From the NCBI GenBank assembly GCA_029865965.1, contig JARXAJ010000282.1, positions 1 to 40,131 of the forward strand: a stretch of 40,131 bases of DNA, written 5' to 3'. Below, one piece after another: positions 1 to 35,870 of the stretch. The notes beneath the pieces are model-generated. The model was given only the letters and a program-made list of their open reading frames with translations. It ran no database searches and was not told where the DNA came from. Positions within the stretch are counted from its first letter, which is position 1; the number at the start of each line of letters is the position of its first letter. The translations under genes and the position numbers were made by a program. The DNA comes from Aquabacterium sp. (lineage in GTDB: Bacteria > Pseudomonadota > Gammaproteobacteria > Burkholderiales > Burkholderiaceae_C).

Positions 1-921
1 GCCCTGGCCGAGGCGCAGGGCGATGGGCGGCTGGTGGCGCAGGTGCATGCGACGCTCGGCCAGGTGCTGACCGGGCTGTGCCGCTACCAGGAGGCCCTGG
101 CGCTGATGGATTTCGCGCTGCAGACCAAGCGCGGCCATGCCCGCCCGGGCAGCAGTGTGGCGGTCGGCTCGGCCTTCACGCTGGCCTGCAAGGGCAGTGT
201 GCTGGGCGACCGCGGCGACTTTGCTGCCAGCCATGCGGCCTTTGCCGAAGCCAAGCAGTTGGTGGGCGACACCACCCACCCGGTGGCCAACTCGGTGTTG
301 AGTTGGGAGGTCATGGTGCTGCTGTGGCAGGGCCGCTGGCAGCATGCCCTGGCCGTTGCAGAGCAGAGTGTGGAACTCTCGCAGCGCTCTTCGGCCTTGC
401 TGCCACTGGCCATCGCCAGCGCTGCGGCCGGCTACGCACGGTGGATGGGCCGCGGCGATGACGCCGGTTATGCCCAGATCGAGGCGGCCGTGGGCTGGAT
501 GGAGCAGCGCCAGGTCCGGTTCTACACCTCGATCTACCACGGCTGGCTGGTCGAGGGGCTGGTGCGGCAGCAGCGTCCGGCTGCAGCCCGGCGCCAGGCG
601 CTGAAGCTGCTGGAGCGTGCGCGCGCCGGCGAAGTGCTGGGCCTGGCAGCGGGCCGCCGGGCCCTGGCACTGGCCGACAGCGCGGCAGGTGACCATGCCA
701 GTGCGCTGCGCCAGTTGGCGCGCGCCGATGCGACCGCGTTGCGACGGCAATCGCGGCGGGAACTGGTCTTGAACCAGCACTGTCGCGCCCAGTTGCTCGC
801 GGCGCAGCAGCGCCATGACGCGGCGCACGACCTGGCCGAGGCTGCCAAGGCCGAGTTTCAGCGCATGGGCATGGACTGGCATGCGCTGCAGGCCGGCGCC
901 AGCGCTGCAGGCCAACGCTGA
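1..921 (+). CDS. TPR-like repeat protein, C-terminal part (5' end outside window)
   Basis: The frame is open from the first base, so the gene starts upstream and only its last 306 codons are visible. The protein is Ala/Leu/Arg-rich and made of repeated helix pairs, for example the segments starting at ATLGQVLTGLCRYQEAL and VMVLLWQGRWQHALAVAEQS. This spacing of small and aromatic residues is typical of degenerate tetratricopeptide (TPR/SEL-like) solenoids. Such tails commonly end large bacterial signalling ATPases and adenylate-cyclase-type or LuxR/MalT-like regulators, but no N-terminal domain is in view to decide. It converges on the multidomain peroxidase gene with about 20 bases between the two stop codons. 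The exact family is not assigned. Confidence 0.7.
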   Translation, partial: ALAEAQGDGRLVAQVHATLGQVLTGLCRYQEALALMDFALQTKRGHARPGSSVAVGSAFTLACKGSVLGDRGDFAASHAAFAEAKQLVGDTTHPVANSVLSWEVMVLLWQGRWQHALAVAEQSVELSQRSSALLPLAIASAAAGYARWMGRGDDAGYAQIEAAVGWMEQRQVRFYTSIYHGWLVEGLVRQQRPAAARRQALKLLERARAGEVLGLAAGRRALALADSAAGDHASALRQLARADATALRRQSRRELVLNQHCRAQLLAAQQRHDAAHDLAEAAKAEFQRMGMDWHALQAGASAAGQR

Positions 922-941: not shown

Positions 942-3900
942 TCAGGCGGATGGCGCGCTTGACGCTGAGCCTGTGCCGTCGGCTGCGCCTGCAGCCAGCG
1001 CCTCGGCCGCAGCGACCGCCGGCGGCAGCACCGCCGGCAGTTTGCGCAGCAGTTCTCGGGCCAGCGCGTTGAAACCCCGCACCGTCGGGTGCAGTTCATC
1101 CCCCCACCAGCGGGTGTAGTCGCTGGCGTACCCTGGCTGGGCCGCCAGCACGCCGGTCAGCTGCACATGGTGCACGTTCTGGCCCGCCAGGCCGGCCGCC
1201 ACCCGCGCGTATTCGATGTTCAGGTCGTCGATCAGCGTGCGCATGATCTGCCGGCCGACGGCTTCGGTGTGGCCCAGCTTGCCGCTGATGACGGGGTGCA
1301 GCCAGGGCCCCTCGTTGAGGTAGCCGCGCTTGTCGGGAACCGGGTGGTCGTAGCCCAGCACCACCACCGGGATGCGGCCCCGTGTCACGGCGCTCAGCTT
1401 GGTCAGCAGGGTGTGCAGGTCGCCTGCCAGCCGCTGGCCGATGAAGATGTCCTTCTCACGTGTGAACAGCGGCTCATCGGCAGCCACGGCCGCGGCGCTG
1501 TTGAGCATCTGAAACAGCGCAGGCGTGGCCTGGCCAGGCAGGGTCTGGTGCAAGTCGTTGCCACCGGCGCTGACCAGGATCGCCCGCGGCAGGGGCTTGG
1601 GGTTCATCGGCCGGTCGGCAGCCACCAGCGCGTCGCTGATCGCGCGGTAGATGGTGCCCGGTGCAGCAGTGTCTGCCGGCGCGGCGGCCAACTCGCGCAG
1701 GCGGCCTCCGGCCGTGGCCAGCATCTCGAATGCGGAGGTGTCCCAACCCAGGTCGGCCAGCGCCTCGCCCAGGTTGCGGCGGGTGAACAGCATGTCGTTG
1801 TAGATCCACGAGTCGCCACATCCCAGCAACGCGCCCTGTGTGGCCGGTGTGCGCTTCCAGCGCAGTGCAAATGCCGTGGCAGGGCGCAGGGTCAGAGCTG
1901 TGGTGCCGGCCAGCCTGGCGTCTGGATCGTTGTCGGGCGCTTCTGTTTCGTCCGAGTCTTCATCCGGCGGCCGGCGCACGACTGGCCCTTCGAACGCCAG
2001 CACACCGCCGGCGGGACCGGGTCGCAGCGCCTCGGGTCGCCGCAGAATCTCGGCGAGCAGGCCGACGATCATGCCGATGGCGGCGCGGTAGCCCGGGCAG
2101 GCGTGCGTGGGGCTGCCGGCGCCGTTGCGGATGCCGCCGAAAGCGGCCATCACGCCGTCGGTGTCGCTTTCCAAACGTTGCTGCGTGGCCGACACCAGCC
2201 CCAGCACGATGCGGTCGCCTGCCTGCACTGGGCAGGCGCTGGCTGCCCCGGACTGCAGGCTGTGTGGCGAGACGGCCCGGCGCCAGATCTGTTCGGGCAC
2301 CGGCCGCGCCTGCATGGTCTGCATCAGCGGCTTGTGCAGCCGGCTCATCGCCGTCGCCCACCGGTCCCAGCCGGCTGCTGCAGCGTGTTGACCATGCAGC
2401 TGCCACAAGGTGCCATCGCGCAGCCACTCGAGCAGGATGCGGCGCAGGTTGCCCCCGGTGGTGGGCAGCATGCCCATTAGCGCGCCGCTGATGGTGCGGG
2501 CGGCGCGGTCCAGATCCGGGCCGCAATCATCGAGCACGGCGCGTGTCACCGGGGCCTGGATCGTCGCGCCTTGCTGCGTGAGGAAGTCCAGCATGGCCGT
2601 GCGCACAGCCTGGCCATGGCGGCGTGCCAGGTCGTCGGCGCTCGGACCGGGGGCGGGCTGGAAGGTAGCGCGCGAGAAGGCGGTGAAATGGCCGGGATAG
2701 CGCGGCCGCAGATCGGGTGCGCTGGTCTCTGGATCGAACGGCACCCAGTCGAAGCCGCCGATAGCGAAGTGCCCGGTGTCGCTGGACAGGCCGAACCAGG
2801 CCTCGGTCACCGCCGCCAGCACGCTGTCGATCAGGGGCGCTGTGTCCAGCAGCAGTTCCCAGCGGTCCTCGTCGTGCAGCGTGGCCAGGTCGCGTGCGTG
2901 GCTGATGCCGTCGTCAATGGCCTTCTGCGCCGCCACCCGGGCTGTGTTGAATCCGTGTTCGAAATCCAGCGCTGCAATGGCATCGTTGCAGGCCCGGGAC
3001 TCATGCCGGTAGTCGGCACCGTCGTCCATCCCCAGGTAAATCGGCCCGATGCCGTGCCTGATCAAGCGCTCCTGATAGCCCTGGACGGTGTAGCGCCCGC
3101 TGATGTTGGACAGCACCTCGTCCACAAGGCTGTCACTGGCCACCAGCACACCGTGGGGCGTGCGCAGTGCGCCGCTATGGAACTGGCGAATCGCCGCCCA
3201 GACCGATGCACTGCGCCATTGCGCCACGGCCTCCAGGTCTTCCAGTGCCAGCTTCCAGGCGGCTGCCGCTGCAACCTCGCCTTCGGCGTGCGCAAGCGCC
3301 TGCAGCCGGGCGATCTCGCGCTCGCCGTCGATGGCTGACCAGGGCACGCTCACCTTGGCTGCCAGGGCGCGTTGGTGCAACCAGGCCAGGCCGCTGGTGG
3401 CGGGCGTGAAGAGGTAGAACCCCCATTGAAGCTTGACGATGGGTGTGGGCTCAGCGTCCAGGGCCTCGCTGCCATCCAGGGCCATGCGGACCACGTCCTG
3501 GCCCTGGACGAACCGAAAGTGCCGCTGGCGCCCCGGTTGTGAGACGCCGAGGAAGGGGTCGGCATGGGCCGACACCATGCCGCTGCTGTTGCCACCGGCC
3601 AGCCAACGCTGGACGACCTCGAACTGCTCTGCGATGCTGGCGTTGTAGGCCATGAACACCAGGCCGCGGTCGGCGCCGTCGTCGGCGGCGGGCGTTGCCG
3701 GCCCAGTTGCCGGCTTTGCCGCCGGCCAGGCGGGCGCAGCCGGCCCGTAGGGCATGCTGCGCCGAACAATGCGCGGCGGCCGCGCACCGGGGATGCTGGC
3801 CAGCACGGCTGGTGACACCGGCTGCGTCTGCAACGTCTCACGCGGGTTGGCCAGCCGGATGTGGGCCGAAAACGGGCACTGGGCCCCGTCCTGGTCCTGG

Positions 3901-5762
3901 CTGTAGTCGAAGTCATTGGGCTGGCCGGCAGGTGCATCCACCAGGGGCAGGCCCGCCAGCGCGTGGCCGACCGGCCAGCGCCCCATCATCTTGGCGAGCA
4001 CCGCGGCACGGCCCAAGCCCGGGGTGCCCGCCACCTTGTCGACTGCCTGGCGCAGCACGCCCAGATTCTGGCGCAACTTGCGCAGCACCAGGAAGCTGCC
4101 GTCGCGCAGCAGCGCACGCTGCTCGGGATGCTGGTTCTCCGGCAGGTCGGTGGCATGGTCGGCCGCGTTGTCCTGGCCCACCAGCACTTCGCCGGGATGC
4201 ACCTGGTTGGCGAACCGCTGGCCGGGCGGTGGGGCATGGTAGGTCGGCTGCGACTGGCCATCGGTGAAGCCGAAGTGGTCGACGGTGTCACCCTGCGCGG
4301 TGACCCGCGCCAGCCATTGCACCGACAGTGGCCGTACACCCGGCATGCCGTCAAGCAGCTGGTGCGCGCGGGCCGCCAGTGCGGATTCGCCTTCGGCATG
4401 GCGGGCCAGGCCCGGGCCCGCCACCCAGCGCAGCTGCAGCACGACATGCACCGCCTGCGGTGCAATGCGCGGCGTATCGTCCGGCGCCGGCCAGGCCGGG
4501 TTGTTCAGTGCATCCGGCCAGTTGCGTTGCGGCAGCACCCAGCGCCGCGGATGGTTGTGCCGCAAGTCGCCCAGAAGCCCGGCGCGGGCGTCCATGCCTT
4601 GCCGAAACTCAGGCGGCAGCAAGGCCAGTTGGGCATCGTCCATGCCGCAGCAGCGCAGGCCTTCGGCCGTGAATCCGAGGTTGACGGTCACGCTGCCGGG
4701 TTTGAGCGGGCTGTCGCCCAGCGTCACCGACGGCTGCAGCCGCTGGAGCAGCGCGGCGGCGGCTGCGGGACCCTCCAGCGAGACCAGGCACAGGCAGCCG
4801 TGGCTGACATCGTCATAGGGATGCAGCACTCCGCCCTGGACACCGCCCAGCGGCAGCGCCGGCGCTGCTTGCAACTGCGGCGCGATGCGTGCGCGTGGCA
4901 GCGTCCGCGGCTGCCGGAACCAGGCCAGCTGCTGGCGCAGGCGGATGCCTGCCGAGTTGATGCTGCCCAGATACTGGGGCATGGTCTGCAGGCGGCTGAA
5001 CTCGGGTAGCAACTCATGCGCGGCTTCCAGCAGCACGTCACCATCGTCGGTGCCGGGCGGATAGGTGTCGGCCAGCCGGTAGATGCCGGCCAGGCCCTGC
5101 AGACCCTGGCGGATGCCGGCCTGCAGGCCGCGGCGGCCTTCCTGCGCCGGCACACCGGCGCTCGGGTCTGCCGACTTGCGCACGATGTCCCAGGCGATGC
5201 GCTCGGCGCTGGGCACGGTCTGCATGGCCAGGGCGAGGTCGTCGCCATCGCGCCGCTGCCGGTGTTCATGCGTGCGCAGGTACTGGTGGTCCTGATAGGT
5301 CTGGCCAGGCGGCGCATAGAAGAACGGCGTCTCCACCTGAACGCTGCGCAGCCATTCACGCCACACCGGAAATGGGCTGCGCCAGCCCAGCGGGTAGTTC
5401 TCGGTGTTGCAGAAGATCAGGTCGAGCAACCGCGCAGCCTTCTGCCAGATCAGCCGTACATAGGATTCATAGGCGCCGTCGAAGTTGACCGACAACAGCA
5501 CCTGGTCCTGCGGCTCGAGCACGGTCACGCGCACGGTGTGGATCACGCCCACACGCTCGACCGCATCCGACAGGGCGCGGAACAGCTGGTACTCATGGGC
5601 AGAGCGGCGGCCGCTGTGCAGCGTGGCCAACAACAGCTTGGTGCGCGTCTTGTAGCTCATCGATTCGATCGACGGCACCAGCCCCTTGCGCAGCGGCGCC
5701 AGCACCAGCAGTTCGGTGCCGCCAGCCAGGCTCGGGGTGGGATTCTTCAGTTCGGTCTGCAT
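942..5762 (-). CDS. Multidomain enzyme: accessory region, DyP-type peroxidase, P450-like domain, SGNH hydrolase
   Basis: This 1606-residue protein joins several enzymes. Residues about 15-290 form an alpha/beta region that I do not recognise. Residues about 305-800 are a DyP-type heme peroxidase: GFTDG (498-502) is the GxxDG distal-Asp motif, H634 in CPFSAHIRLANPR is the proximal heme ligand, and RRSMPYG (667-673) carries the distal Arg. Residues about 840-1240 resemble a cytochrome P450, with the heme-thiolate loop SPTHACPG giving C1222. The usual ExxR pair is not evident; QTMQ (1148-1151) sits about where it is expected. Residues about 1310-1570 are an SGNH/GDSL hydrolase: GDSW (S1318), GGND (N1402) and DELH (D1555, H1558). 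The start at 5762 is chosen because AGGAGG lies six bases upstream; an in-frame ATG at 5768 abuts that site and a TTG lies at 5816. No signal peptide is seen. It follows a LuxR-type gene by 50 bases. The substrate is unknown; fungal oxylipin synthases are the closest analogy. Confidence 0.9.
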   Translation of the reverse strand: MQTELKNPTPSLAGGTELLVLAPLRKGLVPSIESMSYKTRTKLLLATLHSGRRSAHEYQLFRALSDAVERVGVIHTVRVTVLEPQDQVLLSVNFDGAYESYVRLIWQKAARLLDLIFCNTENYPLGWRSPFPVWREWLRSVQVETPFFYAPPGQTYQDHQYLRTHEHRQRRDGDDLALAMQTVPSAERIAWDIVRKSADPSAGVPAQEGRRGLQAGIRQGLQGLAGIYRLADTYPPGTDDGDVLLEAAHELLPEFSRLQTMPQYLGSINSAGIRLRQQLAWFRQPRTLPRARIAPQLQAAPALPLGGVQGGVLHPYDDVSHGCLCLVSLEGPAAAAALLQRLQPSVTLGDSPLKPGSVTVNLGFTAEGLRCCGMDDAQLALLPPEFRQGMDARAGLLGDLRHNHPRRWVLPQRNWPDALNNPAWPAPDDTPRIAPQAVHVVLQLRWVAGPGLARHAEGESALAARAHQLLDGMPGVRPLSVQWLARVTAQGDTVDHFGFTDGQSQPTYHAPPPGQRFANQVHPGEVLVGQDNAADHATDLPENQHPEQRALLRDGSFLVLRKLRQNLGVLRQAVDKVAGTPGLGRAAVLAKMMGRWPVGHALAGLPLVDAPAGQPNDFDYSQDQDGAQCPFSAHIRLANPRETLQTQPVSPAVLASIPGARPPRIVRRSMPYGPAAPAWPAAKPATGPATPAADDGADRGLVFMAYNASIAEQFEVVQRWLAGGNSSGMVSAHADPFLGVSQPGRQRHFRFVQGQDVVRMALDGSEALDAEPTPIVKLQWGFYLFTPATSGLAWLHQRALAAKVSVPWSAIDGEREIARLQALAHAEGEVAAAAAWKLALEDLEAVAQWRSASVWAAIRQFHSGALRTPHGVLVASDSLVDEVLSNISGRYTVQGYQERLIRHGIGPIYLGMDDGADYRHESRACNDAIAALDFEHGFNTARVAAQKAIDDGISHARDLATLHDEDRWELLLDTAPLIDSVLAAVTEAWFGLSSDTGHFAIGGFDWVPFDPETSAPDLRPRYPGHFTAFSRATFQPAPGPSADDLARRHGQAVRTAMLDFLTQQGATIQAPVTRAVLDDCGPDLDRAARTISGALMGMLPTTGGNLRRILLEWLRDGTLWQLHGQHAAAAGWDRWATAMSRLHKPLMQTMQARPVPEQIWRRAVSPHSLQSGAASACPVQAGDRIVLGLVSATQQRLESDTDGVMAAFGGIRNGAGSPTHACPGYRAAIGMIVGLLAEILRRPEALRPGPAGGVLAFEGPVVRRPPDEDSDETEAPDNDPDARLAGTTALTLRPATAFALRWKRTPATQGALLGCGDSWIYNDMLFTRRNLGEALADLGWDTSAFEMLATAGGRLRELAAAPADTAAPGTIYRAISDALVAADRPMNPKPLPRAILVSAGGNDLHQTLPGQATPALFQMLNSAAAVAADEPLFTREKDIFIGQRLAGDLHTLLTKLSAVTRGRIPVVVLGYDHPVPDKRGYLNEGPWLHPVISGKLGHTEAVGRQIMRTLIDDLNIEYARVAAGLAGQNVHHVQLTGVLAAQPGYASDYTRWWGDELHPTVRGFNALARELLRKLPAVLPPAVAAAEALAAGAADGTGSASSAPSA

Positions 5763-5812
5763 GCGCATCCTCCTCGCTGTCGGGTCGTCATGGCCACGCG
5801 CATTGCCGCGCG

Positions 5813-6880
5813 TCAAGAGGCGAGCTGGCCGGCGGCCGCGCCGAGCACGCCGCCGATGGCGCTGCGCTCATGCACGCCCAGCCGCTCGAACACCCGCTTG
5901 GCGTGGTACCCGGCGGTGTTGACCGAGATGCCCAGTTCGCCGGCGATTTCCTGGTTGCTCAGCCCGCGCGCCAGCAGCAGGGCGACCTCGCGTTGCTGCG
6001 GCGACAGGCCCAGCACCGCCGCGCCCTGGGCCTGGCGCAATGGTTGCGCCGCCAGGCGCGACAGCAGCAAGGCAACGGCAGTCGAGCCGTCGCCGGCCGT
6101 CAGCGCGTGGCGGCGGAACACGAACTGGCCCCAGGTGGTGCGCACCATGTGCACCGCATTTGGCGCGCTGACCACCGTGGCCAGCACGGCAGCGATGAAG
6201 CGCGGCAGGGTTTCATGCTCACTGCGCGCCAGCGACGGGTTGATCGCGTCGCCGTGGGCCAGGCGCACCAGGCGCGGCCAATTTCCGTCGGCATACATCA
6301 CTTTGCCGCTGCGTTCGTCCAGCAGTGCAAGCCCTTCTTCGACGACTTGCTCCTGCAACTCGCGAAGTGCGGGCGGCGATGGTTCGGCCACCGCGATGCC
6401 CAGATAGTGCAGCACGCTGGCCAGGGCCTGCTCGTCGCCATCGTCGAAGGGCCGGTCGTCCGGGCCGCGGTACAGGCTGAGCTGGCCCAGGGCCCGACCA
6501 CCATGGCGGACGATGGCATACAGGAAGTGCTCGATCCCCAGTGCCGACAGCACGTCGCGGTAATAGGCGCTGCCGCGTTCGTCGGGCGTGACGGAGCGCC
6601 GGCTCAGCGCATGGCCAGCGGCACAGCGCGCCAGGTACTGCTGGCGGAACTGCGCGCTGTCGTGCTGCGCGTGGTAGCCGGCCATGCGCTCGGGCTCCAG
6701 CATGCGCTCGGCATACATGTTGGTGATGGTGCCGCGCTCATCGCAGAAAAAGAAGCCGGCGTGCGTGGCCGGCACCACCTGGCGCAGCACAGGCAGCAGC
6801 GAGGGCAGCAGCACCGGGCCCGGCAGTTCAAGCCTGCACAGCTGGCGCAAGGTCAGGCGGGCGGAGGCGGCGGAACTCAT
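5813..6880 (-). CDS. LuxR-family transcriptional regulator
   Basis: A 355-residue regulator. Residues about 288-350 form a LuxR/GerE helix-turn-helix: LGLSPQQREVALLLARGLSN, then EIAGELGISVNTAGYHAKRV and FERLGV. The N-terminal 160 residues look like a GAF-type sensor (FFFCDERGTITNMY; LGQLSLYRG), followed by a PAS-like middle section. There is no receiver domain with a phospho-acceptor Asp, so control by a ligand or by protein contact is more likely than by a kinase. The start at 6880 has GGGAAGG about seven bases upstream; an open frame runs further upstream but lacks a convincing site. The gene precedes the peroxidase-P450-hydrolase gene in the same direction with a 50-base gap, so it probably controls that gene and is co-transcribed with it. 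A perfect 14-base palindrome and a small reading frame lie in its leader. Confidence 0.9.
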   Translation of the reverse strand: MSSAASARLTLRQLCRLELPGPVLLPSLLPVLRQVVPATHAGFFFCDERGTITNMYAERMLEPERMAGYHAQHDSAQFRQQYLARCAAGHALSRRSVTPDERGSAYYRDVLSALGIEHFLYAIVRHGGRALGQLSLYRGPDDRPFDDGDEQALASVLHYLGIAVAEPSPPALRELQEQVVEEGLALLDERSGKVMYADGNWPRLVRLAHGDAINPSLARSEHETLPRFIAAVLATVVSAPNAVHMVRTTWGQFVFRRHALTAGDGSTAVALLLSRLAAQPLRQAQGAAVLGLSPQQREVALLLARGLSNQEIAGELGISVNTAGYHAKRVFERLGVHERSAIGGVLGAAAGQLAS

Positions 6881-6933
6881 CGCTGACCTTCCCGGCCGGT
6901 CGACGCGTTGGTATCTGCCTTGGTCTGATGCAT
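6877..6933 (-). CDS. Possible 18-residue leader peptide overlapping the luxR start
   Basis: On the minus strand an ATG at 6933 opens an 18-codon frame (MHQTKADTNASTGREGQR) that ends in TGA, overlapping the luxR-type ATG as ATGA. A purine-rich GGGGAGAGGGG lies five bases before this ATG, a better ribosome binding site than that of most genes in the window. The ATGA overlap would couple translation of the regulator to the small frame. The peptide is hydrophilic and has no signal sequence. It could be a coupling leader, a small functional peptide or chance; only the sequence layout supports it. Confidence 0.35.
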   Translation of the reverse strand: MHQTKADTNASTGREGQR

Positions 6934-6971
6934 CGGATCCCCTCTCCCCTGCGTTGCCTGGCGCTCGCCGA

Positions 6972-6985
6972 GTGTCGGCCGACAC
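6972..6985. promoter_or_regulatory. Perfect 14-bp palindrome upstream of the luxR-type gene
   Basis: GTGTCGGCCGACAC is a perfect inverted repeat about 92 bases before the regulator start and 39 bases before the small leader frame. A related half, GTGTCG, lies about 15 bases further upstream near 7000. Dimeric regulators bind such sites, so this is a candidate operator for the adjacent LuxR-type protein. Binding is inference. Confidence 0.35.
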
Positions 6986-7098
6986 CATGCTGACCATCAA
7001 GTGTCGCGTAGCAAGCGTATGCGCAACGCGGCGGAAGGAGCCCCACGCGCGCGGGTGGGACGTGATGCCGGCAGTTTCCGCTGCGCAGCAAGATGCAT

Positions 7099-7117
7099 CC
7101 CCAAGCGCGTGTTGGGG
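7099..7117 (-). terminator. Hairpin downstream of the MFS gene
   Basis: CCCCAA and TTGGGG arms (six pairs) flank a seven-base loop, about 33 bases past the MFS transporter stop on the minus strand. There is no run of T after the stem, so if it terminates transcription it does so weakly or with help. The rest of 6986-7150 shows no gene. Confidence 0.25.
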
Positions 7118-7150
7118 CCAATGTCGCCGCGCTTGCTGGGGGCTGGTGGA

Positions 7151-8572
7151 TCAGGTGTCGCCGGCCGCAGCGGCCGGCCTGTGCCCCGACATCTCGGCCC
7201 CCGCATCCGCCGCCAGCCTGCGATACCACCAGATCGACGCCAGCGACAGCAGGCCGATCGCGGCAAACGCGCGGGTGAAGTCCACCGCCACCAGGGCGGT
7301 GCGGCCATCGGCCAGGCGCGAGCCGTCCAGCAGCATGGCGGCCACTGCCACGCCGCCTGCCAGGCTCAGTTGCTGGGCCACGGCCACCAGGGCGGTGGCG
7401 CGGCTCAGCCGCTCCTGCGGCACGTCGGCATAACCCAGGGTGTTCAGGCTGGTGAACTGCAGCGACCGGAAGAAGCCGCCCACCAGCAGCACCGCCATGA
7501 TCACCGGCCCGGGCGTCTGGGCAGTGAACAGCGCCAGCGCGCCCATCAGCGCGCTGCTCAGCCAGGCATTCGCCAGCAGCACCCGGCGAAAGCCCCAGCG
7601 CCGCAGGATGGGCGCGGCCGTCAGTTTCATCGTCACGGCGCCCACCGCCGCGCTGAAGGTGAGCAGGCCGGATTCGAAGGCGCTCATGCCGAAGCCCAGC
7701 TGCAGCATCAGTGGCAGCAGGAAGGGCAGGGCGCCCACCGCCAGGCGGAACAGGTTGCCGCCCATGATCGAGATGCGCAGGCTGGCGCTGTGCAGCAGCG
7801 TCAGGTCAAGGATGGGGTGCGGCGTGCGCTGGGCATGGCGCACATAGGCCCACAGCAGCGCCGCGCCCGCTGCCATCATCGCCAGTGCCGGCCCGGGGTG
7901 GGTGCTGCGGCTGCCCAGCAGGGTGAAGCCGAAGATCGCCAGCGACAGCCCGGCACCGGTGAGGGCAAAGCCGCGCCAGTCCAGCGGTGGTGCATCGGCC
8001 AGCCGCACCTGCGGCACCCACCACAGCGCCAGCGCCAGGCCCAGCAGGCCCACCGGCACATTCAGCCAGAAGATGCCGCGCCAGTGGTGGTAGGTGGTGA
8101 TGAAGCCGCCCACCGGCGGGCCCAGGATCGGCGCAAACAGCGTGGGGATGCCCAGCCAGGCCATGGCCGAGACCATCTCGCGCTTGGGGATGGCGCGTAG
8201 CAGGATCAGCCGGCCCACCGGCAGCATCATCGCCCCGCCCAAGCCCTGGCAGAAGCGGCCCACCACCAGGCTGGGCAGGCTCCAGGCCAGCGCGCAACCC
8301 ACCGACGCCAGTGTGAACACCGCAATGGCGGCGGCAAACACTGTCTTGGCGCCGAAGCGGTCGGCACACCAGCCGGAAATCGGGATGAAGATCGCCAGCG
8401 CCACGAAGTAGGCGGTGAAGGCCAGCTTCAGCGTCAGCGGGTCGACCTGCAGGTCGGCCGCGATGGCCGCCAATGAGGTGGCGATCACCGTGCTGGTGAG
8501 GCTTTCCATGAACAGCGCCGCCGCCACCACCAGGGTGAGCGTCCGGGTGGTGGGGGCGCCAGGCAGGCCCAT
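7151..8572 (-). CDS. MFS transporter, DHA2-type drug/metabolite exporter
   Basis: A 473-residue integral membrane protein of the major facilitator superfamily that exports small molecules by proton antiport. Motif A between helices 2 and 3 is seen as GWCADRFGAKT (about 67-77). The antiporter motif C appears as GIPTLFAPILGPPVGG (about 141-156), which places it with drug/H+ antiporters. Length and hydrophobic pattern fit the 14-helix DHA2 group (EmrB/QacA/MdtD-like). Its ATG follows the TGA of the alpha/beta hydrolase by a single base, so it is the third gene of the fadH-hydrolase-MFS operon. It probably exports a product or toxic intermediate of that pathway. The substrate is not readable. Confidence 0.9.
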   Translation of the reverse strand: MGLPGAPTTRTLTLVVAAALFMESLTSTVIATSLAAIAADLQVDPLTLKLAFTAYFVALAIFIPISGWCADRFGAKTVFAAAIAVFTLASVGCALAWSLPSLVVGRFCQGLGGAMMLPVGRLILLRAIPKREMVSAMAWLGIPTLFAPILGPPVGGFITTYHHWRGIFWLNVPVGLLGLALALWWVPQVRLADAPPLDWRGFALTGAGLSLAIFGFTLLGSRSTHPGPALAMMAAGAALLWAYVRHAQRTPHPILDLTLLHSASLRISIMGGNLFRLAVGALPFLLPLMLQLGFGMSAFESGLLTFSAAVGAVTMKLTAAPILRRWGFRRVLLANAWLSSALMGALALFTAQTPGPVIMAVLLVGGFFRSLQFTSLNTLGYADVPQERLSRATALVAVAQQLSLAGGVAVAAMLLDGSRLADGRTALVAVDFTRAFAAIGLLSLASIWWYRRLAADAGAEMSGHRPAAAAGDT

Positions 8573-8573
8573 C

Positions 8574-9485
8574 TCAGGTGGACCGGAGGTGGCCCAGTTC
8601 GGCCTCGATCAGGTGCGCCATGCCCTGGGGGTCTTCCATCGGCAGGAAATGGGTGCGGTCGGGGCGCAACAGATCCCGGCCCTGGGGGAACTCTGGCGCC
8701 AGGCCCGGCCAGGTGGGCGAGCCCAGCGGGTCCCAGGGCTTGATGGCGGGGTCTTGCGCACGGGCGCGCACCACCAGCACCGGGATGTCCAGCGCATGCA
8801 CCAGGTCGTAGGTGCTGGGGAAGTTGCGCGCCAGCGGATACACCTGCCCCTCATGCTGCGGCGCGCAGCACAGCTGGAAGCCTTGGCCGCTGTCGGACGG
8901 GCGCAGACCGTGCACGCAATAGTCCATCAGCGCGGCGCGGTCGAACACCGCATAGGGTGGCCGGTCGGCAAAGCGGTCGAACATCGCCTGGGGCGAGTCG
9001 AACTGGTTCTTGCGCTGGGATGCCGGGTGCAGCTGGCCCAGCGGCACGGGCGGCAGCTGGTAGGCCGCCGGCTCCACCATCACCGGGTCGACCAGGATCA
9101 GGCGGCGAAAAGCGCCAGGCCGCAACGACGCCGCCTGCACCAGCGCATGCGCGCCCATGCTGTGGCCCACGCCCAGCATGCCCGCCTGGGCCAGGCCGCA
9201 GGCGTCGATCTGGGCCGCCTGGTCCTGGCCGAACAGGCGCCAGTGGTCAAACGGCACCGGGTCGCTGCGGCCATGGCAGCGTTGCTCGATGGCGATCACA
9301 TGGCGCTGGGCGGGCAGCCGGCGCACCGCCTGGTCCCACACCCGGCCATGGAAGCCGGTGGCATGCACCAGCCACACCGTCGGGCCGTGGTCGCGCTGGT
9401 CGGCATGCCATTCAAAATGGGCCAGCCGGATGCCCGGGGCCTGGGTGAAATGCAGCTGGGGTTGGTCGCTCACTGTCTGGGTCAT
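8574..9485 (-). CDS. Alpha/beta hydrolase
   Basis: A 303-residue soluble alpha/beta-hydrolase fold protein without a signal peptide. The oxyanion region is VWLVHATGFHG (about 37-47), and the nucleophile elbow GHSMGA places Ser at about 109. The strand DIPVLVVRARAQD and the late THFLPMEDP carry candidate acid and histidine residues. It could be an esterase, thioesterase or C-C hydrolase; sequence alone does not separate these. It lies three bases after the fadH stop and one base before the MFS start, so all three are almost certainly co-transcribed. That suggests it cleaves a CoA ester or ester in the same route. Confidence 0.88.
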   Translation of the reverse strand: MTQTVSDQPQLHFTQAPGIRLAHFEWHADQRDHGPTVWLVHATGFHGRVWDQAVRRLPAQRHVIAIEQRCHGRSDPVPFDHWRLFGQDQAAQIDACGLAQAGMLGVGHSMGAHALVQAASLRPGAFRRLILVDPVMVEPAAYQLPPVPLGQLHPASQRKNQFDSPQAMFDRFADRPPYAVFDRAALMDYCVHGLRPSDSGQGFQLCCAPQHEGQVYPLARNFPSTYDLVHALDIPVLVVRARAQDPAIKPWDPLGSPTWPGLAPEFPQGRDLLRPDRTHFLPMEDPQGMAHLIEAELGHLRST

Positions 9486-9488
9486 TGT

Positions 9489-11585
<2,097 letters not shown>

Positions 11586-29326: not shown

Positions 29327-30802
29327 ATGACACTGGCCATGGGGTGGGACGAATGGGCCGCGCACGACGCGGTGGCCCTGGCGGTGCGGGTGCGCCAAGG
29401 TGATGTGACAGCGGCCGAACTGGCCGCCCAGGTGGCCGCCGGCGTAGCCAAGGTCAACCCGCAACTGCAGGCCGTGGTCGCGCTGTTCGACGATGCGGTG
29501 GCCGACCCGGTGGCTGCGGGTGCCAACGCCGACGGCTTTTTCGCCGGCGTGCCCTTTCTGATGAAGGACCTGGGGCCCGGCATGGCCGGCCGGCTGCAGG
29601 AAATGGGCTCGCTGTTCATGCGCGGCAACTGCGCCACCGAAGACGCCTTTCTCACGCAGCAGATGCGCCGCGCCGGTCTCAACCTGATGGGCCGCACCAC
29701 CACGCCGGAATTCGGCGTCTGCTCGTCGGCCGAGAACCCGGCCGTCTACATCACCCGCAACCCCTGGGACACTGGCTACACCACGCTGGGCAGCAGCGCC
29801 GGCACCGCAGCGGCGGTGGCCGCAGGCGTGCTGCCGATGGCGCATGCCACCGACGGCGGCGGCTCGATCCGCATCCCCGCCGGCGCCAACGGCAATATCG
29901 GGCTGAAGCCCTCACGCGGCGTGCTGTCGATCGCGCCTAGGCTGTCCGACCTGACCGGCCTCGTGTCCACCCAGGGCTGCCAGAGCCGCACGGTGCGCGA
30001 CACCGCCGCCTTCATCGACCACTGCCGGGGCGGTGCGCCGGGCGAGTTCATGCCCTACTGGAGTCCGGCCGAGCCCTACAGCCAGCTGATCGCCCGCGAC
30101 CCCGGGCGGCTGCGCATCGCGCTGTCGCACCAGTGGGGCGCCTACAGCGCCACGCCGCAGTTCGTCGACGAGCTGACCCGCGTGGGCCGTTTGCTCGAAG
30201 GCCTGGGCCACCAGGTCGACTGGGCGCTGCCGGCCATCGACTACGAGGCCGCCTTCGCCGCCCAGACCACCTGCTACATCAGCAACTTTGCCCAGACGAT
30301 TGCCAACATGCTGGCCGCGCGTGGGCTGACCGCGCCGCCGCCGGGGCTGATCGAGCCGATCAACATCCGCATCTGGCAGGCCGGCATCGGCACCAGCTTC
30401 AGTGAGCGGGCGCAGATGCAGGCGGTGTTCAACACCACCGCGCGCGGCTTCGGTGCCTTCTTCGAGGACTGGGACATCATCCTGACGCCGATCACCGCGC
30501 TGCCCACGCCGCGCATCGGCACCACCGAGTACCTGACCACCAGCACCAATCCGTCGGTGCTGGACTGGTTCCACAACCTGTGGAAGAGCTTCGCCTACAC
30601 GCCGCTGACCAACCTGTGCGGCATCCCGGGGGTGTCGCTGCCGCTGGGCTGGCAAGACAACGGCCTGCCGCTGGGCCTGCACTTCCAGGCGAAGCAGGCC
30701 AACGACGGCCTGCTGCTGCAGCTGGCAGCGCAGATCGAGCGATCGCTGGGCGGCCGCTGGAACAGTGGCCGCCTGCCGGCCACCCATGTCACCCACGCCT
30801 GA
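29327..30802 (+). CDS. Amidase, amidase-signature family
   Basis: A 491-residue amidase that hydrolyses a carboxamide. The Ser-cisSer-Lys triad is in place: Lys80 (FLMKDLG), Ser156 (LGSSAGTAAAVAAG) and Ser180 (ATDGGGSIRIPA). The spacing of 76 and 24 residues fits fatty acid amide hydrolase. The usual GGSSGG box is altered to LGSSAG. GatA function is unlikely, since no gatB or gatC is near and the C-terminal half differs. The preceding ligase could in principle use an acid released here, but they seem to have separate promoters. No signal peptide. Confidence 0.9.
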   Translation: MTLAMGWDEWAAHDAVALAVRVRQGDVTAAELAAQVAAGVAKVNPQLQAVVALFDDAVADPVAAGANADGFFAGVPFLMKDLGPGMAGRLQEMGSLFMRGNCATEDAFLTQQMRRAGLNLMGRTTTPEFGVCSSAENPAVYITRNPWDTGYTTLGSSAGTAAAVAAGVLPMAHATDGGGSIRIPAGANGNIGLKPSRGVLSIAPRLSDLTGLVSTQGCQSRTVRDTAAFIDHCRGGAPGEFMPYWSPAEPYSQLIARDPGRLRIALSHQWGAYSATPQFVDELTRVGRLLEGLGHQVDWALPAIDYEAAFAAQTTCYISNFAQTIANMLAARGLTAPPPGLIEPINIRIWQAGIGTSFSERAQMQAVFNTTARGFGAFFEDWDIILTPITALPTPRIGTTEYLTTSTNPSVLDWFHNLWKSFAYTPLTNLCGIPGVSLPLGWQDNGLPLGLHFQAKQANDGLLLQLAAQIERSLGGRWNSGRLPATHVTHA

Positions 30803-30823
30803 GAAATTGTGAGAGAACCCAAC

Positions 30824-31654
30824 ATGCCCACCGTTCTGCAACGCCGCAGTTTTTCTGCCGCCATGCTGGCCGCCTGCCTGCCCGGCTGCGCCCTGCAGCC
30901 GGCAGCAGCCGACGACGCACGGCTGCGCGCCGCCATCGCCGGCGCCCACCGCAGCGCTGCCAACCGCGCCCGCGATGGCGCCCGCCATCCCTATGAGATG
31001 CTGCGCTTCTTCGGCCTGGCGCCCACCCAGCAGGTGGTCGAGCTGGCGCCCGGTGGTGGCTGGTTCACCGAGATCCTGGCGCCCTACCTGCGCGACACCG
31101 GCCGCATCTTCGCCGCGCATGAATCGGCCACCGACGCCAACGACTACCGCCGCCGCAGCCGCCAGGGCTTCGACGCCAAGCTGGCACGTGAGCCGGCGGT
31201 CTACAGCCAGGTGCAGGTGGGCCTGATGCCGCGCACACCGCGCTTTGCCGACATCGCCCCGCCCGGTGGCGCCGACCTGGTGCTGACCTTCCGCAATGTG
31301 CACAACTGGATCGAGGCCGGCCACTTCGATGCCACGCTGCAGGCGGCATTCGCGGTGCTCAAGCCCGGCGGCGTGCTGGGTGTGGAAGAGCACCGCGCGC
31401 CGCCCGGCATGCCGACCGACTGGATCGCCAAGAACGGCTATGTGACCGAGGCGCTGATGGTCGAACGGGCGGAGGCAGCGGGCTTCCGGCTGGATGCGCG
31501 CAGCGAGGTCAATGCCAACCCCTTGGACACCAAGGACCACCCCAACGGCGTGTGGTCGCTGCCGCCCACGCTGCGCGGTGGTGATGTGGACCGTGCGCGG
31601 TTCATGGCCATCGGCGAATCCGACCGCTTCACCCACCGCTACCGCAAGCCCTGA
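30824..31654 (+). CDS. Predicted exported class I SAM-dependent methyltransferase (COG4798-like)
   Basis: A 276-residue protein. The N-terminus has a twin-arginine-like QRRSFSAAML and a lipobox-like LPGC (Cys22), so export by Tat or Sec, possibly as a lipoprotein, is suggested. The remainder is a Rossmann methyltransferase: VVELAPGGGWFTEIL (about 71-85) is motif I, VLTFRNVHNWI lies near motif IV, and AFAVLKPGGVLGVEEHR is motif VI. This resembles the predicted methyltransferase group COG4798, many of which I recall as having signal peptides and no known substrate. It is 21 bases after the amidase stop. A GTG at 30809 is an alternative start. Confidence 0.85.
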   Translation: MPTVLQRRSFSAAMLAACLPGCALQPAAADDARLRAAIAGAHRSAANRARDGARHPYEMLRFFGLAPTQQVVELAPGGGWFTEILAPYLRDTGRIFAAHESATDANDYRRRSRQGFDAKLAREPAVYSQVQVGLMPRTPRFADIAPPGGADLVLTFRNVHNWIEAGHFDATLQAAFAVLKPGGVLGVEEHRAPPGMPTDWIAKNGYVTEALMVERAEAAGFRLDARSEVNANPLDTKDHPNGVWSLPPTLRGGDVDRARFMAIGESDRFTHRYRKP

Positions 31655-31680
31655 CCGGCAGGGCAGGGCGTCTGCACAAT
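31651..31680 (+). promoter_or_regulatory. Candidate promoter before the hexarate operon
   Basis: CTGACC (31651-31656) and CACAAT (31675-31680) are separated by 18 bases and each match four of six consensus bases. The glucarate dehydratase ATG follows 22 bases after, with AGGG as ribosome binding site. The -35 box overlaps the methyltransferase stop. Confidence 0.25.
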
Positions 31681-31702
31681 CGCTGCCAGCCAGGGCCTGC
31701 CC

Positions 31703-33037
31703 ATGATCGCGTCGTCCACTCCCGTCATCACCACCTTGCGCGCCATCCCGGTGGCGGGGCGCGACAGCATGCTGCTGAACCTGAGCGGCGCGCACGGCCC
31801 GTTCTTCACCCGCAACCTGCTGATCCTGACCGACAGCGCCGGCCGCACCGGCGTGGGCGAGGTGCCCGGCGGCGAGGCCATCCGCCAGACCCTGGTCGAC
31901 GCCGCCGCCCTGGTGGTGGGCCAGCCCATCGGCGCCCATCTGGGGCTGCTGCAGCAGGTGCAGCAGGCCTTTGCTGACCGCGACAGCGGCGGGCGCGGGC
32001 TGCAGACCTTCGACCTGCGCACCACCATCCATGCAGGCACCGCCATCGAGTCGGCGCTGCTCGATCTGCTGGGCCAGCACCTGGGCGTGCCGGTGGCCGC
32101 CCTGCTGGGCGAAGGCCAGCAGCGCACGGCAGTGCAGATGCTGGGCTACCTGTTCTTCGTGGGTGACAGGCGCCGGACGGATCTGGCCTATGCCGATGGT
32201 GATGGTGCCGACAACGCCTGGTTCCACCTGCGCCACCAGCACGCGCTGACGCCCGAGGCCATCGTGCGCCAGGCCGAGGCAGCGCAGGCGCGTTATGGCT
32301 TCCAGGATTTCAAGCTCAAGGGCGGCGTGCTGCCGGGTGACGACGAGGTGGACGCGGTGACCGCGCTGCACCAGCGCTTCCCGGATGCGCGCATCACGCT
32401 CGACCCCAACGGCGCCTGGCCGCTGCGCGACGCCGTCCGCCTGGGCCAGCGTTTGCGCGGCGTGGTGGCCTATGCCGAAGACCCCTGCGGTGCCGAAGGC
32501 GGATTCAGCGGCCGCGAGGTGATGGCCGAGTTCCGCCGCGCCACCGGCCTGCCCACCGCCACCAACATGGTGGCCACCGACTGGCGCCAGCTGGCCCATG
32601 CGCTGGCGCTGAAGAGCGTGGACATCCCGCTGGCCGACCCGCATTTCTGGACCATGGCCGGCAGCGTGCGCGTGGCCCAGACCTGCCGCGACTGGGGCCT
32701 GACCTGGGGCAGCCATTCCAACAACCACTTCGATGTGTCGCTGGCGATGTTCACCCATGTCGGTGCGGCTGCGCCTGGCAAGGTGACCGCCATCGACACC
32801 CACTGGATCTGGCAGGACGGCCAGCACCTGACGCAAGAGCCGCTGCAGATCGTTGGCGGCATGGTGCAGGTGCCGCAAGCGCCTGGCCTGGGCGTGACGC
32901 TGGACATGGCTGCGGTGGAGCGGGCCCACCAGCTCTATCTGCAGCACGGCCTGGGCGCGCGTGACGATGCCGTCGCCATGCAGCACCTGGTGCCCGGCTG
33001 GTGCTTCGACCCCAAGCGGCCGGCGCTGGTGCGCTGA
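31703..33037 (+). CDS. gudD: Glucarate dehydratase
   Basis: A 444-residue enolase-superfamily enzyme, nearly the same length as E. coli GudD (446). It dehydrates D-glucarate (and L-idarate) to 5-keto-4-deoxyglucarate. Catalytic and metal residues are all visible: the KxK pair Lys204/Lys206 (FKLKGGV), metal ligands Asp234 (LDPNGAW), Glu259 (AEDPCG) and Asn288 ([10 protein letters not shown]), Asp312 (LADPHFW), and general base His338 (GSHSNNHFD). Each lies one position before the E. coli number. It opens a three-gene operon with an aldolase and galactarate dehydratase. Confidence 0.95.
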
Positions 33038-33059
33038 CTGCAGCACGCGCCCGGCCCAC

Positions 33060-33079
33060 CATCCCATCCCATCCCATCC
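33060..33079 (+). repeat. Four CATCC units between gudD and the aldolase gene
   Basis: Four tandem copies of the pentamer CATCC lie 22 bases before the aldolase ATG, just upstream of its ribosome binding site AAGGA. Short tandem repeats of this kind can change copy number by slippage and alter the spacing or structure of the leader. Confidence 0.8.
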
Positions 33080-33100
33080 AACCCGCCAAGGACCGACCCC

Positions 33101-33889
33101 ATGCGACCCAACAATCTGCGCACCCTGTGGCAAGCCGGCGGCGCCGCCGTCAATGGCTGGCTGGCCATCCCCAACAGTTTTTCTGCCGAAGTCATGGCCC
33201 ACCAGGGCTGGGACACGCTGACCATCGACCTGCAGCATGGCGTGGTGGATTACCAGGCCATGGTGACCATGCTGCAGGCCATCAGCACCACCGCCACCGT
33301 GCCGGTGGTGCGCGTGCCCTGGCTGGAACCCGGCATCCTGATGAAGGCGCTGGACGCCGGCGCCTATGCGGTGATCTGCCCGATGGTGAGCACCCGCGAA
33401 GAAGCGCAGAAGCTGGTGGCCTGGACCACCTACGCGCCCAAGGGCACGCGCAGCTTCGGCCCGGTGCGCGCGCTGTACTACGGCGGGGCCGACTACCCGG
33501 CGCATGCCGACAAGACCGTGGTGCGCTTCGCGATGATCGAGACCGCTGCCGCGCTGGACAACCTGGACGACATCCTGTCGGTGGAGGGGCTGGACGCGGT
33601 CTACATCGGCCCGTCCGACCTGTCGCTGGCACTGGGCTGCAAGCCCAGCATGGACGACCTGGAGCCCAAGGCGCAGCAGGCTGTCGAGCACATCCTGGCC
33701 CGCGCCAGGCACCATGGCGTGGTCGCCGGCATCCACAACGCCGGCCCGGCGTCGGCGTTGCGGCGCATCGGCATGGGCTTCCAGTTCGTCACCGTCAGCT
33801 CCGACGCCAGGCTGATCGCCGAGGGTTCGCAGCAGGTCATGGCCGCGATGCGCGCCGGCCAGGCAGCCAAGCCGGCCGGTGGCGACTGA
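33101..33889 (+). CDS. HpcH/HpaI-family aldolase (probable 5-keto-4-deoxyglucarate aldolase)
   Basis: A 262-residue class II aldolase of the HpcH/HpaI family. The base is His46 in IDLQHG, and Arg71 in VVRVPW binds the substrate carboxylate. The metal ligands are Glu147 (AMIETAAAL) and Asp173 (IGPSDLSLAL), and GTRSFGPVRA is the phosphate/hydroxyl loop. Its position between glucarate and galactarate dehydratases makes cleavage of 5-keto-4-deoxyglucarate to pyruvate and tartronate semialdehyde (the GarL reaction) the best guess. Hydroxyheptanedioate-type aldolases share the fold, so the specificity is inferred from context. Confidence 0.9.
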   Translation: MRPNNLRTLWQAGGAAVNGWLAIPNSFSAEVMAHQGWDTLTIDLQHGVVDYQAMVTMLQAISTTATVPVVRVPWLEPGILMKALDAGAYAVICPMVSTREEAQKLVAWTTYAPKGTRSFGPVRALYYGGADYPAHADKTVVRFAMIETAAALDNLDDILSVEGLDAVYIGPSDLSLALGCKPSMDDLEPKAQQAVEHILARARHHGVVAGIHNAGPASALRRIGMGFQFVTVSSDARLIAEGSQQVMAAMRAGQAAKPAGGD

Positions 33890-33907
33890 TCCCGTCACGC
33901 TCTTGCC

Positions 33908-35488
33908 ATGACAGCCGTTGCGCACACCATCCGCATGCATGCGGCCGACAACGTCGCCATCGTCGGCAATGACGGCGGGCTGGACGCCGGCACCACCCTC
34001 ATCAACGACCCCGGCGCCGGCCTGGTGCTGCGCGACCGCGTGCCGCAAGGCCACAAAGTGGCGCTGGTCGACATCCCCGCCGGCGCACCGGTGCTGCGCT
34101 ACGGCGTCCCGATCGGCCAGGCGTTGAAGCACATCGAGGCCGGCTGCTGGGTGCATGAGCGCCTGCTGCAGATGCCCGACGCCCGAGGCCTGGTGGATCT
34201 GCCCATGGCCACCGCCACGCCCGTGCCGCAGCCTCCCTTGACCGGCCACACCTTCGAGGGCTTTCGCAATGCCGACGGTTCGGTGGGCACACGCAACATC
34301 CTGGCCATCACCCAGACGGTGCAGTGCGTGGCCGGCGTGGTCGACTTCGCGGTGCAGCGCATCCGCAGCGAGCTGCTGCCGCGCTACCCGCAGGTGGACG
34401 GCGTGGTGTCCCTGGCCCATGGTTATGGCTGCGGCGTGGCCATCGATGCGCCCGATGCGGTGGTGCCCATCCGCACGCTGCGCAACATCAGCCTGAACCC
34501 CAACTTCGGCGGCGAGGTGATGGTGGTCAGCCTGGGCTGCGAGAAGCTGCAGCCCGAGCGGCTGCTGCCGCCTGGCAGTTTGCGCAGCTTCCAGATCCGT
34601 GACGATCGCGCCGCCGCAGAGGCCAGCCTCGACGTGACCTGTCTGCAAGACGACGCCCACATCGGCTTCATGTCGATGGTCGACAGCATCGTGCGGCAGG
34701 CCGATGTGCACCTGCAGCGCCTGAACGCCCGCCGCCGCACCACCGTGCCCGCCAGTGAACTGGTGGTGGGCGTGCAGTGCGGCGGCAGCGATGCCTTCAG
34801 CGGCGTCACCGCCAACCCGGCCGTGGGCTTCTGCACCGACTTGCTGGTGCGCGCCGGCGCCAGCGTGCTGTTTTCCGAGACCACCGAAGTGCGCGACGGC
34901 ATCGCCCAGCTGACTGCCCGTGCCGCCACAACCGAGGTGGCCCAGGCCCTGGTGCGCGAGGTGGCCTGGTACGACGCCTACCTGCAGCGCGGGGGCGCTG
35001 ACCGCAGCGCCAACACCACGCCGGGCAACAAGGCCGGGGGCTTGTCGAACATCGTCGAGAAGGCGATGGGCTCGATCGTCAAGAGCGGCAGCGCGCCCAT
35101 CAGCGCGGTGCTGGCACCGGGCGAGAAGCTGCGCAGCAAGGGCCTGGTCTACAACGCCACGCCGGCCAGTGATTTCATCTGCGGCACGCTGCAACTGGCC
35201 GCCGGCATGAACCTGCATGTGTTCACCACCGGCCGCGGCACACCCTATGGCCTGGCCGAGGTGCCGGTGGTGAAGGTGGCCACCCGCACCGACCTGGCGC
35301 GCCGCTGGCATGACCTGATGGACCTGAACGCCGGCACCATCGCCGATGGCACCCAGACCATCGAGCAAGTGGGCTGGCAGCTGTTCCACCTGCTGCTGGA
35401 CATGGCCAGCGGCCGCCAGCGCACCTGGGCCGAGCGGTGGAAGCTGCACAACGCGCTGGTGCTGTTCAATCCGGCGCCGGTGACGTGA
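33908..35488 (+). CDS. garD: Galactarate dehydratase
   Basis: A 526-residue protein, close to E. coli GarD (523). An N-terminal SAF domain (about 12-90: [25 protein letters not shown]) precedes the large UxaA/GarD catalytic region, seen as [51 protein letters not shown] and [19 protein letters not shown]. It dehydrates galactarate to 5-keto-4-deoxyglucarate, the same product as GudD. It lies 18 bases after the aldolase stop and completes the operon. The downstream steps (tartronate semialdehyde reductase, glycerate kinase), the transporter and a dedicated regulator are not in the window. Confidence 0.94.
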
Positions 35489-35870
35489 CAGGCCGGGCAG
35501 CCGCCCACCCGGCCAGCGCGGCCGCCAGCCCCAGGCCCAGCGCAATGCCGATGCCATCGGCCAGCAGATCAGCCCATTCACCCACCCGGGTGGGTGTGAA
35601 CGCTTGCAGCACTTCGATCGGCCCGCCATAGGCCAGCAGGCCCAGCGCCACTGCCCACCAGCGGCGCTGGAAGCCCAGGGTGCCGGCCACCGCCAGGCTG
35701 GCAAAGGCGGCGCAGTGGTTCAGCTTGTCCCACAGCAGGCCGGCCTGGGACGGGGGCGCAGGTGTCAGCGCCAGCCAGGTGACCACGGCCAGCAGCAGGC
35801 CCAGCACGGCGCGCCAGCAAAGCGCGGCGCGCGGGTGGGCAGACAGGGCGTCAACCAGGATCTTCGTCAT
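35466..35870 (-). CDS. VanZ-like membrane protein
   Basis: A 134-residue protein with about four hydrophobic helices and the VanZ signatures [17 protein letters not shown] and [20 protein letters not shown]. The founding member confers low teicoplanin resistance, but most chromosomal homologues have no known role. Its 3' end overlaps the end of garD by 23 bases on the opposite strand. The start at 35870 gives the normal family length. The 246-base divergent gap to the CBS gene contains GCTGCC/GGCAGC (35979-35993) and a CCT repeat (36051-36064) but no gene. Confidence 0.82.

Follow-up and report, generated by a model that had tools for sequence, protein, structure and literature searches.

A bacterial protein joining a DyP-type peroxidase, a P450-fold domain and an SGNH hydrolase recurs in shuffled and split forms, often beside class III cyclases

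What might a bacterium gain from a single polypeptide that unites a DyP-type peroxidase, a P450-like domain and an SGNH hydrolase, and is such a polypeptide real? The question is raised by a gene in a stretch of 40,131 nucleotides from Aquabacterium sp. (NCBI GenBank assembly GCA_029865965.1, contig JARXAJ010000282.1), referred to here as the window, in which a first-pass annotation had recognized motifs of all three domains in one frame and had likened the protein to fungal oxylipin synthase fusions. We confirmed that a single bacterial protein joins these domains, together with an N-terminal (N) domain of about 295 residues that heads it and that the annotation had missed (Table 1). Because related bacteria join the same parts in other orders or carry them as neighboring genes, often beside a signaling cyclase, the locus points to an uncharacterized oxidation and signaling unit.

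The uninterrupted frame of 1606 residues described by the first-pass annotation was borne out from the ATG at 5762, and all six residues it had numbered are present; residues are counted here from the TTG start (1624 codons), which adds 18 to the ATG-start numbering, such that H634, C1222, S1318, N1402, D1555 and H1558 become H652, C1240, S1336, N1420, D1573 and H1576. The genome that contains the window is fragmented (317 contigs), as would suit an assembly or sequencing artefact linking separate genes, a danger the earlier annotation had itself named; however, full-length proteins with the identical domain order occur in other genomes, namely in the same genus (L006), in Bradyrhizobium (L021-L024 and L034) and in Piscinibacter sakaiensis (L031), with 40-57% identity to the window protein (57% for L006), and in a further locus, L026, the contig stops within the SGNH part. 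The codon signature is also even along the gene, the GC content of third codon positions being 0.79-0.90 throughout, except for 0.64 in the final short block. Since full-length relatives of the same order exist in other genomes, a joining error is excluded, and the artefact explanation, which retains a negligible probability, is refuted. No signal peptide was noticed by eye in the fusion protein, and from its sequence the enzyme is probably cytoplasmic.

Table 1. Fusion gene, its domains and the convergent cyclase gene in the window
Feature	Position	Strand	Details
Fusion gene	942..5816	minus	1606 aa from the ATG at 5762, the likely start; at most 1624 aa, from the TTG at 5816
N domain	4827..5711	minus	residues 36-330
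DyP-type peroxidase domain	3351..4826	minus	residues 331-822; D519 (GxxDG), proximal H652, distal R685
P450-like domain	2007..3350	minus	residues 823-1270; Cys1240 as heme ligand; Pro in place of the I-helix acid; ExxR lost
SGNH (GDSL) hydrolase domain	1002..1844	minus	residues 1325-1605; S1336, N1420, D1573, H1576
C-terminal TPR part of convergent class III cyclase-AAA-TPR gene	1..921	plus	cut by contig end

The Pfam check suggested by the first-pass annotation gave a mixed outcome, in that Dyp_perox_C and the SGNH family PF13472 were matched in the window protein below their cut-offs, whereas p450 was unmatched at E <= 1; the p450 family also matched none of 15 fused domains (E <= 0.1), an outcome which that annotation had listed as able to refute its reading. 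The P450 claim nevertheless held on other grounds. In an hhalign comparison spanning 341 columns, a profile of these fused domains (A3; 15 of the 24 family rows, without the truncated L032 and 8 Bradyrhizobium near-duplicates) aligned with a profile of partner P450s from other DyP loci (A5; 5 rows) at a probability of 98.4% and E = 6.7e-15, and these partner P450s in turn match P450s in the PDB at E = 3.7e-37. The predicted structure of the P450 and SGNH part (mean predicted local distance difference test score, pLDDT, 71.6) retrieved only P450s among the Foldseek matches listed (50 of 800 PDB chains at E <= 0.001; best E = 1.1e-8; TM-scores by target mostly 0.49-0.60), and a viral structure library returned P450s together with weak esterase/SGNH matches. 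Used alone against the PDB, the fused-domain profile found P450s weakly (best E = 0.02), which made up 32 of the 34 matches listed. Because the profile alignment to the partner P450s, their PDB match and the fold search outweigh the Pfam failure, and with the heme Cys in place, these comparisons establish the fused domain as a P450 at the level of profiles and predicted fold; the Pfam miss is taken as a result of ExxR loss and a longer Cys loop, not of P450 absence.

The residues that the domain keeps and loses bear on its chemistry. Its heme Cys loop reads F-G-G-x-R, an insertion, then H-x-C-x-G, and these letters are invariant in 15/15 fused domains; the heme Cys is present in all 36 DyP-partner P450s of a wider alignment, which includes several near-duplicate rows. 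At the I-helix acid position these 36 carry Pro (31), Gly (3), Ala (1) or Glu (1), that is, the acid is lost in 35, with Pro at the acid and Thr at the alcohol position in every one of the 15 fused domains. Pfam p450 found four P450s in the window's genome, all on other contigs and none in the window, and these controls have Asp or Glu in 4/4. The acid serves O2 activation in P450s, and its loss argues against ordinary monooxygenation with O2 and NADPH and would favor peroxide use or hydroperoxide rearrangement. The ExxR pair is complete in none of the 15 fused domains and kept in 19 of the 21 split or permuted partner P450s, and of the 13 such partners given to Pfam, 11 exceed the p450 cut-off (the exceptions being L067 and L068). 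The K-helix ExxR of P450s is described as conserved with few exceptions (PMC3990721). The fused domain thus resembles bacterial P450s (PF00067) in fold and Cys loop and differs from them in the replaced acid, the missing ExxR, the longer loop and the Pfam miss. Among P450s without the acid-alcohol pair, the CYP152 fatty-acid peroxygenases use peroxide and have an I-helix Arg-Pro; the likeness to them would lie in peroxide use without that pair, whereas no Arg occupies the Arg-Pro columns here. The absence of ExxR, together with the intact DyP residues, would also suit peroxide or xenobiotic detoxification by an ordinary DyP that carries a noncatalytic P450 remnant as a scaffold, an explanation we regard as improbable, in that seven invariant Cys-loop letters (F, G, G, R, H, C, G) would be unlikely in a dead scaffold and P450s recur with DyP in several layouts.

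The DyP domain itself is readily recognized. It matches solved DyPs in the PDB at E = 1.3e-27 and the NCBIfam model TIGR01413 at E = 1.1e-20, with a score of 74.2 bits that falls under the cut-off of 100.5; its Pfam Dyp_perox_C match has E = 0.0069. The DyP motifs of the first-pass annotation proved correct, GFTDG occupying residues 516-520 and RRSMPYG, with the distal Arg, starting at 685, and the catalytic Asp of GxxDG, the proximal His and the distal Arg are invariant in 16/16 diverse DyP rows; Bradyrhizobium L034 reads GFVDS and retains the Asp. Compared with known DyP-type peroxidases (TIGR01413; PDB 8re3/8re2 and 7anv), the domain shares these three residues and a clear sequence match, but lies under the curated NCBIfam cut-off and is joined to the N domain in most surveyed loci and often to a P450. 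No family of the cyclooxygenase superfamily of heme peroxidases was matched in the window protein (Pfam, NCBIfam and PDB), the peroxidase matches being to DyP. The N domain belongs to no Pfam family, and no member of its alignment gave a convincing Pfam match; hhalign detected no relation between it and DyP. Its core occurs as a separate gene or as a C-terminal extension of P450s in other bacteria, and a His at alignment position 58 is invariant in 10/10 rows.

The SGNH blocks were likewise present as described, with Ser, Asn and His invariant in 10/10 rows and the Asp three residues ahead of the His in 4/10, including the window protein (Asn stands there in 6/10). The window protein matches PF13472 under the cut-off (E = 7e-4), and among the ten aligned members nine reach E <= 0.01 for this family, the best at 1.7e-12; the match of the SGNH profile to thioesterase I is weak (E = 0.035). 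Most DyP-P450 proteins seen are without this domain, the shorter N-DyP-P450 proteins of other Bradyrhizobium, Roseateles, L007 and L008 stopping after the P450, and on a 23-row tree the SGNH label changes twice, which fits one gain and one loss. A stand-alone SGNH gene related to the fused domain (L078:9102-9932) lies in a genome (G018) that has an N-DyP-P450 fusion without SGNH.

The same parts recur in nature as N-DyP-P450 proteins with or without SGNH, as P450-N-DyP proteins and as split neighboring genes. P450-N-DyP proteins of about 1415 residues are encoded in L058, L059 and L063, the last on a Pararhizobium plasmid, and proteins of this order also in 5/25 loci of a phylum survey; in Skermanella, N, DyP and P450 are on three overlapping genes, and split genes occur also in L067, L068 and L070-L072, with a P450-N gene followed by a DyP gene in L067, L068 and L071. 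A separate gene for the N domain lies upstream of DyP in Bacteroidetes loci. To avoid selection by P450, survey loci were chosen by DyP similarity. The first set comprised 11 loci among 59 relatives, after one SGNH-only match (L020) was dropped; the second was drawn from 299 genomes of the phylum, 24 of which matched at 1e-20, giving 27 loci, of which 25 were used, leaving out the window and G050 (the latter already in the first set). The N domain is present in 21 of these 25, and rescanning the first 11 with broader profiles left the P450 and cyclase calls unchanged and added the N domain in L069 and L070. Of the 36 DyP loci, 20 have a P450, fused or nearby, and 13 have a cyclase nearby: both are found in 12, a cyclase alone in 1, a P450 alone in 8 and neither in 15. 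Presence of the two is associated (Fisher p = 0.0013), a value that is optimistic and serves as a guide only, since the loci are related (four genomes belong to one genus, for example), short contigs are among them and the profiles derive from our own loci. On a Sphingopyxis plasmid (L064:9992-12421), where mercury-resistance genes are close by, the copy has lost its N-terminal part on the side that abuts a Tn3 transposase gene, and a cyclase-AAA-TPR gene still adjoins the truncated copy; in Bradyrhizobium (L047:11741-13597), a gene for a RoxA-like cytochrome c of the rubber-oxygenase type directly follows an N-DyP pair; and L055 has a similar-looking gene, only the L047 protein having been scanned.

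The conserved genomic partner of the fusion is a class III cyclase, not the LuxR regulator whose conservation the first-pass annotation had proposed to survey, and its suggestion of a signaling link was borne out in this other form. Relatives of the protein encoded at window positions 1-921 are class III cyclase-AAA-TPR proteins (four scanned), and an N-terminal part with the cyclase domain extends to the terminus of another contig, C111, in the window's genome; we infer that the two contigs adjoin, with no exact overlap of their ends. A cyclase gene lies convergently downstream in 20 of the 21 family loci with more than 1 kb of downstream sequence (L026 and L032 end inside the fusion gene) and is directly adjacent in 19; in Roseateles L038 it lies about 3 kb away, with two TRAP transporter genes between. 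Cyclases also flank seven of the eight permuted fusions (not L090) and lie near 5/13 split sets (L067, L068, L070, L071 and L092), none being found near the other eight (L052, L066, L072, L081, L082, L091, L093 and L097); a Crp/Fnr gene adjoins L058, L059 and L063. In seven loci (L042, L045, L050, L051, L060, L061 and L041, the last cut by a contig end), most of them labeled as Bacteroidetes groups, a cyclase of about 1700 residues stands beside N and DyP genes, and the two of these cyclases that were scanned have a kinase-AAA-GAF-cyclase make-up. At most 6 cyclases are encoded in 10/15 carrier genomes counted, and G256 has one in 6.3 Mb, the adjacent one. Both metal-binding Asp residues are retained in the 23 cyclases aligned.

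Two heme-enzyme domains, an intact DyP site, a P450 without the I-helix acid and a chain with no reductase domain together suggest a peroxide-driven sequence. We therefore propose, at about even confidence for and against, a reductase-free two-heme oxidative enzyme that acts on peroxides and is tied to cyclic-nucleotide signaling. The DyP domain, its Asp, Arg and His intact, would use peroxide either to oxidize a substrate or to generate a radical or hydroperoxide. The P450-fold domain, which keeps its heme thiolate, would more likely rearrange or peroxygenate an intermediate made or supplied by its DyP partner, and probably does not activate O2 with NADPH, because the I-helix acid and the ExxR pair are lost. 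The two heme steps would follow one another in this order on a shared substrate, with electrons and peroxide used as outlined, and in some members the SGNH domain may free or transfer an acyl group. Because the enzyme is tied to a convergent class III cyclase with AAA and TPR sensor parts, its product, or the oxidant it handles, would most likely feed a cyclic-nucleotide response, which sets the presumed direction of signaling.

Several observations weigh against this proposal. With ExxR lost, the fused P450 might have no catalytic activity or serve a purely structural role, and the P450 of a GST-P450 fusion gene that follows N-DyP in a Bacteroidetes bacterium (L052:11458-13599) is the only partner of the 36 to retain the acid. 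The lack of a reductase match applies to the fusion chain (Pfam and NCBIfam), neighboring genes not having been searched for electron-transfer partners, and the predicted structure of the N and DyP domains has a mean pLDDT of 46, their contacts not being readable from the model. Sixteen of the 36 DyP loci have a P450 neither fused nor nearby, and a cyclase was not seen in 8 of the 20 that have one. L022, the sole exception among the 21 family loci, shows an MFS-like frame at the site of the expected cyclase; 9-38 cyclases are encoded in the other five of the 15 carrier genomes; and the later N...R pair is broken in several cyclases (Asn or Arg missing), making their cyclase activity uncertain.

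What, then, might the substrate be? One possible though doubtful answer is that the protein is a bacterial oxylipin synthase. DyP would then make or take a fatty-acid hydroperoxide, which the P450 would isomerize to an allene oxide, epoxy-alcohol or diol; acyl chains would be released by SGNH, and the oxylipin would signal via the cyclase. We know of no DyP with fatty-acid dioxygenase chemistry, which counts against it. The SGNH domain itself would suit it, and most DyP-P450 proteins seen are without one; a patatin-like phospholipase frame overlaps the DyP end in a cluster of cyclase, P450-N and DyP genes (L071:10201-12210, the same gene as L010:2561-4048). These hints of lipid are circumstantial, and TRAP transporter genes would fit a small organic acid equally. 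TRAP transporters usually carry such acids, and a DctP-DctQM transporter lies near the fusion in 8/20 flanked family loci, namely in the upstream flanks of seven Bradyrhizobium loci (L021, L025, L028, L029, L035, L036 and L039) and between fusion and cyclase in Roseateles L038 (L038:13611-16480; 59-75% identical), which hints at an imported organic acid as substrate. An AMP-binding ligase gene stands beside the TRAP genes in six Bradyrhizobium loci and would in turn suit an oxylipin pathway. In the window, four co-directional genes upstream of the fusion (5813-11549) encode an OYE-type flavoenzyme, an alpha/beta hydrolase, an MFS transporter and a GAF-LuxR regulator, the first two of which also fit lipid chemistry; however, the LuxR, MFS and hydrolase genes were found in one relative only, the same-genus genome G007, as was the OYE gene apart from a weak match in L064. 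LuxR and lipid-pathway genes were on this account rejected as conserved partners. Elsewhere in the window, a 1930-codon minus-strand frame spans 29912-35704, with long opposite-strand frames over the same stretch.

The fungal analogy drawn by the first-pass annotation stood in its logic, supported by the two fusion orders, the split sets and the loss of the acid in 35/36 partners, and does not extend to ancestry. Fungal dioxygenase-P450 (DOX-CYP) proteins of the linoleate diol synthase type (CYP6001-6005) and oomycete CYP5619 also place a heme peroxidase-type enzyme and a P450 in one chain. The P450 of the fungal proteins acts on its partner's product and is termed self-sufficient, the peroxidase is unrelated to DyP and an HxCxG Cys pocket, which the bacterial proteins share, is reported for DOX companions (PMC13049297), and the oomycete peroxidase-P450 fusions have the order reversed relative to the fungal ones, such that both orders exist across lineages, and CYP5619 keeps the ExxR (PMC5919972) that the N-DyP-P450 fusions have lost. 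The P450 is probably self-sufficient in the bacterial as in the eukaryotic proteins. The differences are that a DyP here takes the place of a member of the peroxidase-cyclooxygenase superfamily and that the proteins are bacterial, with an additional N domain, SGNH and a cyclase neighbor.

The cyclases raise a further alternative, a cyclase-gated conflict or defense effector: detection of an invader by a STAND-like cyclase would turn on an oxidative enzyme that attacks lipids. AAA/TPR and kinase-AAA-GAF cyclases do adjoin the enzyme and match Pycsar cyclase (PycC) models down to 1.5e-15, although these models may match class III cyclases generally; in six proteins examined with PADLOC the matches were of a generic kind (cyclase, TPR and kinase), and the fusion protein yielded only a weak Cas5 match (1.2e-4) that we took as noise. 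Pycsar cyclases share the class III domain, which is joined here to AAA/TPR or kinase parts. Among the proteins scanned, which did not include the other neighbors of the fusion, no Pycsar effector was found, and the enzyme has no cyclic-nucleotide-binding domain in a Pfam scan. A pattern suggestive of conflict is that the window and G007 share 57% identity in the fusion and 61% in the cyclase, against 85-93% in the four upstream genes (81-93% in flanking genes), a contrast that would be explained if fusion and cyclase were exchanged together as one cassette. Among four Bradyrhizobium pairs with readable flanks, however, two show equal conservation of cassette and flanks, and the others lower values for the cassette (91/86% versus 93-95%, and 76/84% versus 86-96%). 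Because the contrast is strong for the window and G007 but mild in two Bradyrhizobium pairs and missing in two, exchange is as likely as fast evolution of the cassette. We consider a defense role unlikely.

To our knowledge, peroxidase-P450 fusions are known only from eukaryotes and only with cyclooxygenase-type partners. No description of a DyP-P450 fusion or DyP-P450-cyclase cluster was found in a literature search of titles and abstract openings with partial coverage, subscription journals lying mostly outside it. As a tentative wider picture, the loci may represent a widespread, undescribed bacterial unit, independent of the eukaryotic fusions, in which a DyP-P450 pair, needing no reductase, makes an oxidized messenger that may derive from lipid, and an adjacent class III cyclase with AAA/TPR parts, dedicated to this chemistry, reads or gates it, the trimodular protein being the most compact version. 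A different peroxidase superfamily is here coupled to P450s that lack the O2-activation residue, whether by fusion in either order or as split genes, and cyclases often lie alongside. Should the proposed chemistry prove true, these proteins would be reductase-free two-step oxidation catalysts, would give a role to a little-understood group of DyPs and would offer a testable link between heme oxidation and cyclic-nucleotide signaling in soil and plant-associated bacteria.

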